Shown: piece by piece, positions 7,000 through 40,334 of the stretch
Numbering within the stretch: position 1 is the first letter of the stretch
How the letters are laid out: the number at the start of each line of letters is the position of its first letter
Origin: a virus
IMG/VR virus record: IMGVR_UViG_3300012532_000007
Coordinates: 1-40,334 of that record
Direction: 5' to 3' (one strand)
DNA length: 40,334 nt
Translations under genes and position numbers: made by a program
The notes under the pieces: generated by a model
The model's database searches: none
What the model saw: only the letters and a program-made list of their open reading frames with translations
What the model was told of the DNA's origin: nothing

Positions 7000-9321
7000 C
7001 TATGTCGCCCTCGTGGAGATCGTCTGTGCGAGCTTGCCGTCGTCGCCCGCCGTGAAGGTAGTGTTGATCTCTGCCAGGTGGACGTCCGCGCTGACCACTA
7101 GGCCGGCCGCGTCGACGACGGTCACGCGGTCGCCGAGCTGCAATCTAGGATCGGCGACGATGCCCAGCCCCTGCAAGGTGGGTTTGCCGTCCTTCAGCAT
7201 CGCCAGCAGGTCCGTGGCCTTGAGGCCGATGCTGTCCAGGTCTTGCAGGAAGGGATTGCCGCTCTCCTCGTAGAGCTGCTCCCCGAACGCGGCGATCGAG
7301 GTCGCGTCGGAGGCTTCCAGCCGCTGGTGCTGATTGACCGACAGCACCCCGCTGGTGTCGTCGGCGGTGGCGTCGAACAGCACCAGGTCGCCGTGCAGGA
7401 CCAGCGACGGCGCCCCCGCGGTCACCCCGGTCACCCCGGTGTTGCCGACCAGCCACACCGTGAACGCGTTCGGGTTGGTCACCACGATCTTGGCGGACTG
7501 CGCGAACGGGGTGACCGCCCAGGTGAGGTTCGACACCACGCTGCCGGCCCCGTCCCGGGCGGTGGAGGCGTTGTAGCGGCTGGTGGTGACCGCGGTGTGC
7601 GAGCCGGGGGTGGTGTCGAGGTTGCCGGCCGGGGTGTCGAACTGCGCCCAGAACGTCTTTGAGCCGTTGGCGGGGACCGAGACGAGCGTGACGAGTTTCC
7701 ACACGTCCTTTGAGGCCTGCACGGTCGGTGGCGCCGCGTGGACCGCGATGTGGTTGCGGACCGAGTCGGTGCTCTCGTCGGAGCCGAGGTCGGTGATCGC
7801 ATCGGTCGCCCGCAGCGTCCGCTGCGAGACGGTCTGCGGCGCGACCGTGAAGAACGTGCGGTCCCGGAAGAACGGGGTGCCGTCCTCCAGGCAGCCGGCC
7901 GTGCCGAGCTCCGCGTCGGCGAGCTGCTGCAGGACCGTCCACGCCTGCTCGCGCATCACCGGGGTGGCGATCAGCGAGTTGCGGCCGGCCATCACCTGCG
8001 CGGCGGGCACGAACGCGTCGTTCCACGCGCCCGCGCCGTCCGGGTCGCCGGCGAAGTCCTGCGTGGTGACCTGCACCGCCTCGGTGTTGCCGTCCAGGTA
8101 GTCGCGCGCGAAGCTCGCGGCGTTGCCCTGCGCGACGTACAGACGGTCCAGCAGCTCGGCCGAGTGGTTCACGGTCGCCAGGTTGACGGGCCCGGTGGTG
8201 GCGCCGTTCTTGCGGAGCCACACGTTCATGTCGGTGGAGTTGAACTCGCAGTAGACGCCGATGTAGTACCAGGTGGCGTTGGCGAAGCCGCTCGGCCCGG
8301 CCGTGCCGGTCGAGACGTTGGTGCCGGCGCCGCCGCGGTTGACGTCGACCTGGAGCCGCCCGGTCGCGTCGACCCACGCACTCACGAACGGGGTGCTGGT
8401 GCCCTCGTGGAACGCGTGCCAGATGGCGCTGTGGTCGGTCCCGCCGATGTCATTGAACCGCCACCAGCCCTCGACCAGCAGCCGCCCGCCGGTGTTCGCC
8501 GACGCGGTGGCCGACAGGTTGTAGTAGAGCACCTGCGAGCTGGTCCCGCTGGTGGTCACGCTGGCGACCCACTTGGCCGCGGGGGTCGGGTGGGTGAACC
8601 CGTCGGGCGGGAACGCGAGCGTGGTGTAGTTCGCGCCGTAGAAGTCGTGGAGGGTGCCGACCTCCGGCCAGCCGGAGCCGTGCATCGTCGCCGACAGCTT
8701 GCAGCTCGCCCGGACCGGTGGCGACGCGTAGAAGCCGCACTGGCGCAGGACCCAGTCGGCGAGGAACGCGCCGGTCAGGCCCGGCTTGTTCGCGCCGCCC
8801 GCGACGGTCCCGTCGTCGGCGATGATCATCGGCAGGGTGACCTGGCGGGCGAGCGCCTCCCGGTTGTCGACCAGCTCGAGCGTCGCGGTCCGCTGCCCCG
8901 AGTCCACGGCGAGGCGGCGGACCCGGCCGGTGAGCAGCCGCACGTACTCGGCACCGGCGCTGGTGCGGAAGCCGACCGAGACCCTCGCGGGCGCGCCCTT
9001 GCGGTCGTAGCCGTAGATCGGCGAGGCGGTGTTGTAGGGGCTGAACCACCAGGCGGCGTGCTGGCCGGCGGCCGACTCGTCGTTGCGGGCCAGCACGACG
9101 GTGGCGCTGGCCGCCGCGATCCCGCTGAACGGGCGGGCCTGCTCGGGCAGGTCGGTCGTCAACGCCCGCGACACCCGCAGGTCGGCCACCATCGGGGTGA
9201 GGTCGTCGATCGTTCCCGGGCCGCCGTACCCGTTCCGGGCCCAGTCCACCTCGACGAGGACGACGGGGCTGCGCTCCTGCGCGAGGATCGCGGCGGCGAG
9301 GGTGCCGGAGACCGACTGCAC
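7000..9321 (-). CDS. tail hub/minor tail protein with LamG-like domain
   Basis: 773 aa from a GTG directly after the preceding TAG. The N-terminal 190 residues read like the tail baseplate-hub fold (VEVDWARNGYGG, then LTGRVRRL and LELVDNRE). The middle, about residues 215-410, looks like a concanavalin/LamG jelly roll (ATWYYIGVYCEF, then MNVWLRKNG), which often binds sugars. The C-terminal 350 residues return to a hub-like pattern, ending with RLQLGDRVTVVDAAG and HLAEINTTF. It probably forms the tail tip and may contact the host surface. Domain limits are approximate. It follows the Dit-like gene, as expected for a Tal-type protein. Confidence 0.75.
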   Translation of the reverse strand: MQSVSGTLAAAILAQERSPVVLVEVDWARNGYGGPGTIDDLTPMVADLRVSRALTTDLPEQARPFSGIAAASATVVLARNDESAAGQHAAWWFSPYNTASPIYGYDRKGAPARVSVGFRTSAGAEYVRLLTGRVRRLAVDSGQRTATLELVDNREALARQVTLPMIIADDGTVAGGANKPGLTGAFLADWVLRQCGFYASPPVRASCKLSATMHGSGWPEVGTLHDFYGANYTTLAFPPDGFTHPTPAAKWVASVTTSGTSSQVLYYNLSATASANTGGRLLVEGWWRFNDIGGTDHSAIWHAFHEGTSTPFVSAWVDATGRLQVDVNRGGAGTNVSTGTAGPSGFANATWYYIGVYCEFNSTDMNVWLRKNGATTGPVNLATVNHSAELLDRLYVAQGNAASFARDYLDGNTEAVQVTTQDFAGDPDGAGAWNDAFVPAAQVMAGRNSLIATPVMREQAWTVLQQLADAELGTAGCLEDGTPFFRDRTFFTVAPQTVSQRTLRATDAITDLGSDESTDSVRNHIAVHAAPPTVQASKDVWKLVTLVSVPANGSKTFWAQFDTPAGNLDTTPGSHTAVTTSRYNASTARDGAGSVVSNLTWAVTPFAQSAKIVVTNPNAFTVWLVGNTGVTGVTAGAPSLVLHGDLVLFDATADDTSGVLSVNQHQRLEASDATSIAAFGEQLYEESGNPFLQDLDSIGLKATDLLAMLKDGKPTLQGLGIVADPRLQLGDRVTVVDAAGLVVSADVHLAEINTTFTAGDDGKLAQTISTRAT

Positions 9322-36564: not shown

Positions 36565-36914
36565 CGCGCGCCCCGGTAGCCGTAGACCTCGTGGGGGGCG
36601 TCGCAGGCGGGGCACCAGGCGACGCCGGTGACGGCGAGACGGGCTGGTGCCAGCGCCGTGGCGACCTCCTGCACGAACGCCTCGCGCTGCTCGACCTCGG
36701 CGCGCGGCATAAACGGGTCCACGGAGGTCACTGCCGAGTGGGGTCGGCTGCCGGCTCGGCGGCGTGGGCCGCCGTTGTCGGCCCGCCAGCACGCCAGTGT
36801 GCAGTACAGCGCCTGCCAGCCCTCCCGCGCGGGTGTGAACGGCTCGTCGCAGTTCAGGCAGGCCCGCTCGCCGGCGGGTGCCGCAGGGGGGTCGACGGCA
36901 CCGGGCCTACCCAT
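36561..36914 (-). CDS. zinc-ribbon protein, 117 aa
   Basis: ATG with 8-base overlap with the preceding gene. CLNCDEPFTPAREGWQALYCTLAC at about 19-42 gives four cysteines in C-x2-C...C-x3-C spacing, close to zinc-knuckle forms of HNH accessory proteins. CPACDAPHE near the C terminus adds another pair. No nuclease core is visible. Function unknown. Confidence 0.65.
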   Translation of the reverse strand: MGRPGAVDPPAAPAGERACLNCDEPFTPAREGWQALYCTLACWRADNGGPRRRAGSRPHSAVTSVDPFMPRAEVEQREAFVQEVATALAPARLAVTGVAWCPACDAPHEVYGYRGAR

Positions 36915-37161
36915 CGCTGGCCGCCTGCCCCGCGCCGCTGGTGGACGTGCGCCACCAGACCTGCTTCCAGCCGTTCAGCACGACCCGTTCGACGCGGCCG
37001 GCCTTGGCGAGCCGGTCCAGGCGCCGCCAGGTGACGGCGTCCGGCGGCCACGCCATCGGACCAGCCTGCTGCGCGACCTGCCGGGTGGACAGGGGGAACC
37101 CGTGGGCGTCGCGGAGCACCGCGAGGAGCTGGTCGTCGAGGGCGACCGTGGCCGCCGTCAC
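36907..37161 (-). CDS. winged-helix-like DNA-binding protein, 84 aa
   Basis: ATGA coupling at its start. The reading is a compact helix-turn-helix with wing: LLAVLRDAHGFPLSTRQVAQQAG, then AVTWRRLDRLAKAGRVERVVLNGWKQVWWRTS. The second part resembles the recognition helix plus beta wing of MarR/ArsR-like domains. It may regulate this operon or act at the origin. No ligand domain. Confidence 0.65.
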   Translation of the reverse strand: MTAATVALDDQLLAVLRDAHGFPLSTRQVAQQAGPMAWPPDAVTWRRLDRLAKAGRVERVVLNGWKQVWWRTSTSGAGQAASDG

Positions 37162-37322: not shown

Positions 37323-37584
37323 TGGGGCTCCCCTCCCCCCGCTCCTGCTGCTGGGCGCGCGCGTCGAGCCCGTCGAGCCGGTCGAGCGCGTCGCGGGCCA
37401 TGTCCATGGCGTGCTGGTGCGCGCGGTTGAGCAGCTCGATGCGCTCCTGCATGGCGGGGAGGCGGTCCAGCGCGTCCGCGCCGGCTCGGAGGGCCGCGCG
37501 GAGGTCCGGGTAGAGGGTGGCACCGTGCAGCTGCTCGTACTGCCGCAGCACGGCCGCCTGGGCCGGGCCCATCGGCTCAGCCAC
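37315..37584 (-). CDS. helical hypothetical protein, 89 aa
   Basis: GTG overlaps the preceding stop by 8 bases; an in-frame ATG four codons on is an alternative. Nearly all helix: AAVLRQYEQLHGATLYPDLRAALRAGADALDRLPAMQERIELLNRAHQ, likely a coiled coil. Unrecognised. Confidence 0.6.
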   Translation of the reverse strand: MAEPMGPAQAAVLRQYEQLHGATLYPDLRAALRAGADALDRLPAMQERIELLNRAHQHAMDMARDALDRLDGLDARAQQQERGEGSPNG

Positions 37585-38377
37585 CGTCCTCACCGTCCTC
37601 CGCGTCGTCGTACGGCCTGGTCGCCTCGCGGATGAGCGCGAGATCCCGGCGGGCCCGCTCGTCGCGCTCGGCGGCGGCGGCGTGGCTGGACGGGTCCAGC
37701 ATCGAGGCGACCACGGTGCTGTCGGCCAGGCGCAGGGCCGCCAGTAGCCGCCCGACCTCCACCCGGGCCGCGTCCCGGTCGGCGCACGCCTGCTCACAGT
37801 TCCGGTCGGCCTGGTCGAGGCGGCGGCGGGTCTCGTCCAGCTCGGCCCGCAGCGACGCGGCGTCCCAGCCGTCCGGCGGACCGGTGAGATCGGCTGGTGG
37901 GCCGGCCACGTCGTCCATCTCGCCGGTGCGTTCTGGTCGTACGGTGCCGCGCCGTTCGAGAGGCGCCAGGCGCCCGTCGGCCAGCGCGCGGGCCGCGGGT
38001 GCCCACAGTGGTTCCCGCGCGGACCCGGCCAGCCGCCGGAGGGCCGCCAGGTGGGCGGTGGTCGGCTGGGCCCGTCCGGCGCTCCAGGCGTACAGCGACC
38101 GCCGGTCCACCCCGACCGCGCGAGCGATCTGGGCGCGGGTCCAGCCGAGCCCGCGGAGGTGCTGGACGGCCTGCTGGACGGCCCGGGCGAGGTCGAGGGG
38201 TGGGCTGGCCACGGCAGTGGGGATGGCCGTGGCCGGCTCGGTCACATGGGTGCCGACACCTCCCGGGGCGTCCTGGATCGGTTCGAACGCGGTGCAGGGG
38301 CAGCGGCCGTGCTCCCGGCAGCCGCCGAGCTCGGTGTGCGAGATACGGATGTGGCCGCAGCCCGAGCAGCGGTTCAT
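37577..38377 (-). CDS. zinc ribbon-HTH-coiled-coil protein, 266 aa
   Basis: Start chosen at the ATGA overlap with the Rad52-like gene. Residues 1-33 form a ribbon (CSGCGHIRISH...CREHGRCPC). At about 65-120 there is an XRE/sigma-like helix-turn-helix (RAQIARAVGVDRRSLYAWSAGRAQP). From about 165 onward there is a Glu/Arg/Ala coiled coil. The combination suggests a DNA-binding protein that dimerises and recruits a partner, perhaps a replication initiator or regulator. The fusion order is visible; the role is inferred. Confidence 0.65.
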   Translation of the reverse strand: MNRCSGCGHIRISHTELGGCREHGRCPCTAFEPIQDAPGGVGTHVTEPATAIPTAVASPPLDLARAVQQAVQHLRGLGWTRAQIARAVGVDRRSLYAWSAGRAQPTTAHLAALRRLAGSAREPLWAPAARALADGRLAPLERRGTVRPERTGEMDDVAGPPADLTGPPDGWDAASLRAELDETRRRLDQADRNCEQACADRDAARVEVGRLLAALRLADSTVVASMLDPSSHAAAAERDERARRDLALIREATRPYDDAEDGEDGG

Positions 38378-39408
38378 GCGGCGGCTCCCTGGTCGTGGTG
38401 GTCGAGCAGCCACGCCTTTGCCAGGTCGAAGTCGTCGCCGGCGAGCTGCTTGACCGCGCCGGCGTCGGCGAGCTCCGCGAACGGCTGGGCGGGCAGCTTG
38501 TCCTTGTGGTCGGGTGGGAGCTGGCCAGCGCGTTTCAGCCGCAGCCAGCAGTTGGTCAGGCTTCGCCCGAGCGCTGCGGCGAGCTCCTCCATCGTGGCCG
38601 CCCGGTCGGCGGGGTGGCCGTTACTGGTGGCCCCAGCCGCCGCCGGGGGGGCCGGAGCGGCGGCTGGGGCGGCTCCCGCCGTCGCCGCGGGCGCGGGCGG
38701 TTCGGCGGGAGGGTCCTCGGCGGCCTTGGTCTTGCGCCTGCTGGTCTTGCGCGTGGCGGGCGCGGGGTCCGGGCCGGCAGCCACCTTCCCCGGCACTGCC
38801 GGCCCGGACGTCTCGGGGGCGGGGTCCGGGGCGGGGGTGGCAGAACCCGGTTCCGCGTCACCACTGGTGGCCACCGCGCGGGCGGGTGTCTCCGCCCCGG
38901 ATTTCTCGGCCTGCCCGTCCCGTCCCGTGACGGGCAGCCACTTGTCGAGCACGTAGTCGCTCTCGGCCCACAGGTGCAGGCCGAGGCCCAGCCGCATCGC
39001 GCACCGCTTCAACCCGTCGCTGGCTGCGGCCTTGGCGCGCTTGCCGTCGTTGTTCCAGTTGTGCGGGTCCTCGACGTCGCCGATCTCGGTGATCCTGCAT
39101 GTGTCCCCGTCGACGGTGGCGGTGAGCTGGCAGCGCGCACCGACGACCACGCCGCGGAGCGCCGGCGTGCCCTGCTTGGCCCGGTCGCTGTGGCCCTGCG
39201 GGTTGGGTGGCACCTCGACGACGTCGCCGCGGATCAGCTCGACGACTTCGAAATCGAACGGGCCCACGATGTACAGCAGGAGCTGCTCGACGGCGTCATG
39301 AGGGACGTAGAACTCGCGGCGGCCGTTCCCGACGTCGATTTGTTTGACGAACCGGTCGGGGACACGGTTGACGAGCTTGGCGAGCTGTGCACGGTCGGTG
39401 GTGGTCAT
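38374..39408 (-). CDS. Rad52-like single-strand annealing protein
   Basis: 344 aa, ATG with GGAGG 9 bases upstream. The N-terminal 150 residues match the Rad52/Sak family pattern: YVPHDAVEQLLLYIVGPFDFEV, RGVVVGARCQLTATVDG, and WNNDGKRAKAAASDGLKRCAMRLGLG, the last being the conserved helix of this fold. A long Ala/Pro/Glu linker (about 165-275) joins it to a small helical C-terminal domain. Annealing proteins pair with an exonuclease; the RecB-like gene just upstream is the likely partner. The long low-complexity linker is unusual. Confidence 0.8.
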   Translation of the reverse strand: MTTTDRAQLAKLVNRVPDRFVKQIDVGNGRREFYVPHDAVEQLLLYIVGPFDFEVVELIRGDVVEVPPNPQGHSDRAKQGTPALRGVVVGARCQLTATVDGDTCRITEIGDVEDPHNWNNDGKRAKAAASDGLKRCAMRLGLGLHLWAESDYVLDKWLPVTGRDGQAEKSGAETPARAVATSGDAEPGSATPAPDPAPETSGPAVPGKVAAGPDPAPATRKTSRRKTKAAEDPPAEPPAPAATAGAAPAAAPAPPAAAGATSNGHPADRAATMEELAAALGRSLTNCWLRLKRAGQLPPDHKDKLPAQPFAELADAGAVKQLAGDDFDLAKAWLLDHHDQGAAA

Positions 39409-39413
39409 GGGGA

Positions 39414-39866
39414 TCAGCCTCCAGCGCCGGCGCGCAGATTGAGGAACAGCCGCGTGTCCGGCCCGCCCCGGTGGAGGTTCAGCTCCTCCAGCGTCTTGGA
39501 GCCGTACGGGTCGAGCCACACCCCGGCGACGTCCCGGACCTCCCAATCGGTGGCGGGGCGGCCAGTGTGGTTGCCCTTGGCGAGCGCTGCGGCGACGAGC
39601 TGATCCAGCGTCGCGGTCGGTGTCGTGGGGAGCTCGTAGGTCCAGCCGTTCACCACGGCCTCGACCGTGATCTGTTGGTCGGCAGGCGGCGTGACCTCCT
39701 CGAGTTCGTCAGCGAGGCCACGAAGCCGCGAGCGGAGCTGCCCGAGCTGGCCAGCATTGAGGTGCTCGGTCAGTCGCGGGTCGCCGGGTGGATAGAGCAG
39801 GTCGGCGGCGAGCCGCACCAGCTCGTGATCGTCTTCTGGGACCTTTTGGATTGGCGTGTCGGTCAC
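39414..39866 (-). CDS. ubiquitin-like beta-grasp protein ending in Gly-Gly
   Basis: 150 aa from GTG overlapping the nuclease stop. Residues 1-65 are polar and helical. Residues of about 66-150 read as a beta-grasp fold: ITVEAVVNGWTYELP (two strands), ATLDQLVAAALAKG (helix), ATDWEVRDVAGVWLDP, KTLEELNLHRGGPDTRLFL, ending NLRAGAGG. This order closely resembles prokaryotic ubiquitin-like proteins of the DUF2604 kind, which end in Gly-Gly. The GG terminus is the attachment end in such proteins. No E1, E2 or JAB protein is visible in the window, so use as a conjugating tag is unproved. Confidence 0.65.
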   Translation of the reverse strand: MTDTPIQKVPEDDHELVRLAADLLYPPGDPRLTEHLNAGQLGQLRSRLRGLADELEEVTPPADQQITVEAVVNGWTYELPTTPTATLDQLVAAALAKGNHTGRPATDWEVRDVAGVWLDPYGSKTLEELNLHRGGPDTRLFLNLRAGAGG

Positions 39867-40334
39867 GGTGCTGCCTCCGGTTGTTCGATGGCTTCGAGCG
39901 GCTGGAACTGGACGCCGTTGCCGGCCGGGTCGAAGCAGAGCGTGGTGTACGCACAGATCCCGCAGCTCGAGAACGTGCGGACCGGTGGCCCTTCGATCAG
40001 GTCGCGCGCCCACCGGCACGTCGCCACCAGCTCCACGTCCCACATCGGCTTGACCGGGTACGTCTCCGTCGACGGCCCCTTGTCCAAATCGATGAAGCGG
40101 ACGAGGTCGGGGCGCTGGCCGACGACCTCCTCGACGCCGCGGGCATAGGCGGCGGCCTGCACCCACCGCTCCTGCTTGTTCCAGTTGCCCGAGCCGCTCT
40201 TGTAGTCCACCACCACCAGCGCGTCCCGGGTGGGGTCGAGGTCGATGCGGTCGACGCGGCCGCCGAGCGCGAACAGGCCCCGGTCCAGGAGGACCTCGAA
40301 GCGGCGCTCGCAGTGCAGCACCTCCGGCCGGTCC
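39863..40334 (-). CDS. RecB/Cas4-like PD-(D/E)xK nuclease (partial, 5' end outside)
   Basis: The frame is open to the window edge and encodes the C-terminal 156 residues. It carries GGRVDRIDLDPTRDALVVVDYKSG, the Asp and the D-Y-K catalytic pair of the PD-(D/E)xK fold, with QAAAYA as the motif that usually follows. Further on FSSCGICAYTTLC provides three Cys of a likely iron-sulfur cluster, as in Cas4 and AddB-type nucleases. It is coupled to the ubiquitin-like gene by GTGA. It probably resects DNA ends for the Rad52-like protein. Confidence 0.8.
   Translation of the reverse strand, partial: DRPEVLHCERRFEVLLDRGLFALGGRVDRIDLDPTRDALVVVDYKSGSGNWNKQERWVQAAAYARGVEEVVGQRPDLVRFIDLDKGPSTETYPVKPMWDVELVATCRWARDLIEGPPVRTFSSCGICAYTTLCFDPAGNGVQFQPLEAIEQPEAAP

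Follow-up and report, generated by a model that had tools for sequence, protein, structure and literature searches.

Bil is a bacterial ISG15-like antiphage system, one of several in bacteria that are related to the ubiquitin/ISG15 pathway. Its components are the ubiquitin-like protein (Ubl) BilA, the E2 BilB, the JAB protein BilC and the E1 BilD. The tail of BilA, like that of ubiquitin, is gripped by the E1 and by the JAB protease. PMC11364771 and PMC12948488, citing Hor 2024, describe the system as conjugating its Ubl to the phage tail fibre and spoiling assembly. Iyer et al. (2006; PMC1779556) described the NGR234-type class of DUF2604 operons, class 6c, in which the NGR234 megaplasmid encodes E1-like, JAB, metal-binding and uncharacterised proteins. 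Ubiquitin-like folds are also known from viruses. In phage lambda, gpI (TAPI) has a Ub-like domain and a C-terminal structural domain, and is encoded in the tail module with the JAB/NlpC partner gpK (PMC1779556, PMC12908700). Giant viruses and baculoviruses carry beta-grasp modifiers that are homologues of eukaryotic ubiquitin.

The DNA analysed here, referred to as the window, spans all 40,334 bases of its IMG/VR record, which therefore offers no sequence to the right of 40334; the contig itself is incomplete and is cut inside a nuclease gene. Terminase, portal, capsid/protease and tape measure genes identify it as a genuine tailed phage, further genes encode FtsK-like, Prim-Pol, D5 helicase, N4/N6 methylase and VRR-NUC proteins, and the terminase is nearest to those of actinophages, e.g., Streptomyces phage Samy (48% identity). 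We show that the contig is from an actinophage-type siphophage, in which a Ubl gene has been added between two otherwise overlapping early genes. This gene occupies positions 39414–39866 on the minus strand, starts with GTG and encodes 150 aa ending in ...TRLFLNLRAGAGG. An initial annotation had placed a gene here, leaving the strand unstated, and had singled out the segments NGWTYELP, ATDWEVRD and the C-terminal LFLNLRAGAGG; the gene is real, and its product contains all three.

Pfam DUF2604 (PF10790) matches residues 63–150 of the phage Ubl over profile positions 3–85 of 85, with an E value of 1.3e-12 and a score of 48.4 bits. This score exceeds the gathering cut-off of 25 bits across the domain, so that the gene is not a chance open reading frame and the DUF2604 membership proposed in the initial annotation is confirmed. 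A profile built from 15 DUF2604 sequences matches PDB chains deposited as Ubl(BilA) (8tyx and 8tyz; E 2e-44) and the BilA of Methylobacterium brachiatum (8u38; E 1e-20), and the phage Ubl as a single query also matches 8u38 over residues 59–150 (E 6e-6). DUF2604 thus corresponds to BilA, the Ubl that the Bil antiphage system uses as its modifier. The BilA model of PADLOC matches neither the phage Ubl nor three DUF2604 proteins encoded in complete cellular bil operons, and NCBIfam likewise has no name for the phage Ubl or for cellular BilA.

The AlphaFold2 model of the phage Ubl contains strands at residues 66–72 and 75–81, a helix at 87–97, and strands at 108–111 and 139–144, with pLDDT mostly 80–90 in the domain core. 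Its best PDB matches by Foldseek are 8tyx (E 9e-7), a bacterial (Bil) Ubl–deubiquitinase complex, and 8tyz (E 3e-6), an E1–E2–Ubl complex, with TM values of 0.83–0.84 by target length, and ubiquitin itself ranked below both. The strand-strand-helix-strand-strand beta-grasp order that had been read from the C-terminal part thus holds in the model and in the fold search. The beta-grasp domain, which includes the mature C-terminal Gly, is encoded at 39417–39680. Residues 1–62 (39681–39866) form an N-terminal extension modelled with low confidence (pLDDT about 42–65) as a two-helix hairpin (residues 11–24 and 38–56), and no homologue of this leader was found among the fetched loci. A second Ubl domain in the leader was considered and rejected, the model placing two helices there instead, though at low confidence. 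Taken together, the data show that the product of the phage gene is a ubiquitin-like modifier of the BilA (DUF2604) family with a short helical leader fused to it.

Cellular DUF2604 loci, 52 of which came from a scan of GTDB genomes and two more from a phylum survey, provide the reference for comparison. The phage Ubl has plasmid matches in Rhizobium etli p42a and Sinorhizobium fredii NGR234, and in both the DUF2604 gene heads an operon with metal-binding, Mov34/JAB and E1-like proteins. Homologues of BilB, BilC and BilD follow DUF2604 in 55 of the 56 fetched cellular loci, with the proteins of L007, whose neighbouring genes PADLOC names BilB, BilC and BilD, as the reference; cellular DUF2604 genes therefore do stand with E1, E2 and JAB genes, as the initial annotation had stated for the family. 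The one exception is L043 of Mesorhizobium YC-39 (8001–8327), which has BilA and BilB without BilC or BilD in the locus; its damaged tail (KVGIVGA) belongs to a bil operon that is apparently decaying.

We note several differences between the phage Ubl and its relatives. First, the phage Ubl and the BilA of Bil share the same Pfam family over the whole domain, the same fold, and the tail motif L[FYV]L.[LP][KR]AGxxG with a terminal Gly, whereas the phage Ubl is encoded by a virus without BilB, BilC or BilD, has a helical leader rather than a second Ubl or a short tail, and carries two small insertions as well as a diverged QPPENWE motif (RPATDWE). Second, the NGR234 and R. etli genes matched by the phage Ubl are of the class 6c type, whereas the enzymes that accompany DUF2604 in that class are all missing from the window. 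Third, lambda gpI also has a phage-encoded Ub-like domain; however, the phage Ubl is encoded in a recombination module on a contig without a JAB gene, and its sequence stops at Gly; it is therefore not a gpI/TAPI-type tail-assembly Ubl. With the ubiquitins of giant viruses and baculoviruses the phage Ubl has in common a virus-borne beta-grasp modifier fold, the similarity being one of fold only, at low sequence identity.

The enzymes of the pathway were sought on the phage side as well. ThiF (E1) and Prok-JAB profiles have no match in the window or in L056 and L057, two phage contigs related to it, although control genomes were positive, and Pfam scans of about 30 window genes revealed no E2-like gene. 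No BilB, BilC or BilD homologue is present on the incomplete phage contig, and the gene is thus not linked there to a BilABCD system. Because the contig ends prematurely, partner enzymes may lie beyond its ends. The phage might accordingly possess a Bil system of its own, directed against rival phages, with BilB, BilC and BilD in the unsequenced part of its genome. The break inside the nuclease gene agrees with this idea. However, BilA stands directly before BilB, BilC and BilD in the cellular loci (55 of 56), whereas here a Rad52-like gene comes next; in L056 and L057, only small genes lie upstream of the nuclease; and tblastn of GenBank phages with BilD (E1) gave no match. We regard a complete phage Bil system as improbable.

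No match was obtained either when 50,697 GenBank phage records were searched by tblastn with the window protein and cellular BilA. Protein and alignment scans of IMG/VR revealed no other viral DUF2604, and DNA scans for the tail pattern, the first of which recovers the window gene as a control, gave only two false positives, both structural proteins. The phage Ubl is a singleton among the viral sequences searched. The family, fold and operon have been described before; a BilA that is carried by a phage and separated from its enzymes is absent from the collections searched, and it was not found in the open-access papers searched, though the wider literature may have it.

The gene is inserted tightly into the recombination module. 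Upstream lies a RecB-like PD-(D/E)XK nuclease gene (39863–40334, minus strand; PF12705, E 5.7e-11), of which the C-terminal 156 aa remain before the contig end, and which overlaps the start of the Ubl gene by 4 nt (GTGA). Downstream, a gene for a 344-aa Rad52-like single-strand annealing protein (38374–39408, minus strand) starts 5 nt past the Ubl stop. The neighbours named in the initial annotation are therefore in place, the Rad52-like one being only weakly assigned (PF04098, E 0.004, below the cut-off; the PHROG single-strand annealing protein phrog_3290, E 0.007). Relatives found via the Rad52-like protein comprise the phage contigs L056 and L057 and actinobacterial loci, including the prophage-like locus L077, which has an adjacent nuclease. 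The window nuclease is 71–78% identical to its counterparts in L056 and L057, and the Rad52-like protein is 65–68% identical to those of L057 and L056. In all three of L056, L057 and L077, the nuclease and Rad52-like genes overlap by 4 nt with no gene between them (GTGA in L056, ATGA in L057 and L077), and no DUF2604 was found anywhere on the two phage contigs; the early module of the window and its relatives is otherwise collinear. Based on these direct overlaps, the phage Ubl gene is an addition between two core genes rather than a conserved component of the recombination operon.

The junctions show how the addition is arranged. The sequence GGAGGCAGCA, with its SD-like GGAGG (39874–39878, minus strand, in the window), stands before the Rad52-like gene in both L056 and L057, whereas in the window it is the Ubl gene that the junction sequence GGAGGCAGCACCGTGACC opens. 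The Rad52-like gene of the window uses a new ATG, and the SD-like GGAGG 9 nt before it (39418–39422) coincides with the C-terminal Gly-Gly codons of the Ubl gene, GGA GGC (39417–39422, minus strand). At 39417–39422, one stretch of DNA may thus serve both the end of the tag and the translation of the Rad52-like gene.

The functional coupling to the recombination nuclease proposed in the initial annotation gains no support from this comparison, since three relatives with the nuclease/Rad52-like pair have no Ubl between the two. The pair thus works without the Ubl, and an obligate role as recombination partner is ruled out. A non-covalent role could still be envisaged, in which the Ubl serves the nuclease and Rad52-like protein as adaptor or regulator, or binds BilC or another host protein unconjugated. 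Its tightly spaced place between the two genes of the recombination operon speaks for such a role, but the three relatives without a Ubl speak against it, and it would leave the retention of the tail unexplained; we consider it quite unlikely.

The tail is the part of the phage Ubl that most resembles cellular BilA. The terminal Gly is kept in 26 of 26 distinct cellular DUF2604 sequences and aligns with Gly150 of the phage Ubl, whereas the penultimate residue is Ala in 20 sequences (rhizobial type), Gly in five (L004, L006, L007, L064 and L065, four of them from Actinomycetota and L006 being an unplaced MAG) and Val in L043. The expectation that relatives keep a Gly-Gly end thus stands for the last Gly but fails for the penultimate one, the rhizobial sequences having Ala-Gly. 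Six of the 26 cellular sequences stop exactly at the conserved Gly, the others having one or two further residues; the phage Ubl stops there, as L064 does (...SLRAGAGG), and trimming by BilC would therefore not be needed. Identity to cellular BilA is 50–83% over the last 12 residues, compared with 22–36% over the rest of the domain. The phage Ubl retains 19 of 30 family-conserved columns but 13 of 23 in the core, where the losses are concentrated (the QPPENWE motif included), and all conserved tail columns are retained except for the conservative K145R. Since the codons for Gly-Gly also supply an SD-like site, retention of Gly-Gly is not purely evidence for conjugation; the upstream LFLNLRAG stretch is not under this constraint.

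The branch of the phage Ubl is the longest of the tree (2.93); its neighbours are the actinobacterial L004 and L007 and the unplaced L006, but the placement is unsure because of long branches. A long branch with a conserved tail implies prolonged selection on the phage Ubl, and this bears on the idea that the gene is a passenger, i.e., a recently captured neutral or non-functional fragment of a host bil operon. Its singleton status would suit a passenger, as would a GC3 slightly below that of its neighbours (0.83 vs. 0.89 and 0.93), whereas the intact frame, the SD-like site and the 4-nt overlap, in addition to the implied selection, make this origin improbable.

A lone copy of BilA without its enzymes suggests that the virus turns or jams the Bil defence. 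We tentatively favour the reading that the phage Ubl is a counter-defence mimic of BilA, which vies with the host's own BilA for access to the Bil enzymes; a more specific form, that a captured antiphage modifier was reshaped into a decoy substrate poisoning the host Bil cascade, is possible and is put forward with greater reserve. The initial annotation had mentioned the jamming of a host ubiquitin-like defence, which here would be Bil. Made early together with the recombination genes, the phage Ubl would be taken by host BilD, and perhaps by BilB, instead of host BilA. Owing to its altered core or its helical leader, the chain might then stall or a harmless tag be attached, and host BilA would fail to reach the phage tail fibre. 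Since Bil tags the tail fibre and spoils assembly, interference would be the likeliest benefit to the phage. A kept tail with the rest changed can be explained if the protein is still accepted by the Bil enzymes as a substrate but has a different effect. Uptake by the enzymes via the kept tail is the better-supported step that we infer, and the stalling is speculation.

In every BilA the tail is the best conserved part, and that the phage Ubl retains it is compatible with any role in conjugation and not with a decoy alone. The host Bil system, or a related E1/E2, could put the phage Ubl on a host or phage protein to the benefit of the phage, with the helical leader choosing the target. The kept and already mature tail, the presence of a leader and a phage contig without enzymes of its own fit such a transfer, but the host Bil enzymes would have to accept the diverged core described above; we judge it unlikely. 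Among the alternatives we rank this transfer first, followed by the non-covalent role, a Bil system of the phage's own and the passenger. Three points speak against the favoured mimic. The phage Ubl stands alone, and there is no second viral sequence from which selection could be read; the host may well be without Bil, given that DUF2604 is rare in Actinomycetota (3 of 396 sampled genomes, the query genome among the three); and Bil enzymes could be encoded in the part of the phage genome that is missing.

No phage counter-measure against Bil was found in the open-access papers searched. A phage carrying the Bil tag without its enzymes is a candidate for a substrate-mimic inhibitor, or for a virus redirecting the tag, and either role is testable directly by expression of one small gene. 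The decoy reading, if true, would make the phage Ubl an anti-Bil protein derived from the very tag that the defence uses.

Further observations concern the cellular loci and the phage module. In R. etli p42a (L002, 7622–8252), genes for TIR-domain and caspase-family proteins follow the bil operon, possibly as a defence island or an effector add-on. In Methylobacterium sp. GXS13 (L041, 7047–8255), a 402-codon open frame has the DUF2604 domain at its end, as would be expected of a multi-Ubl BilA (cf. PDB 8u38), and a weak partial DUF2604 match inside a 639-codon frame of L066 is comparable. In the phage module, the slot after the Rad52-like gene varies, holding an HTH protein with weak Pfam matches in the window (37577–38413), and, both read by eye, a DnaQ-like exonuclease in L056 (5116–5793) and a HAD-like phosphatase in L057 (after 4455), which looks like accessory-gene turnover in the module. 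The best conserved gene of the module common to the window, L056 and L057 is that of an 84-aa protein without a Pfam match (36907–37161 in the window), which is about 82–84% identical in L056 and L057.
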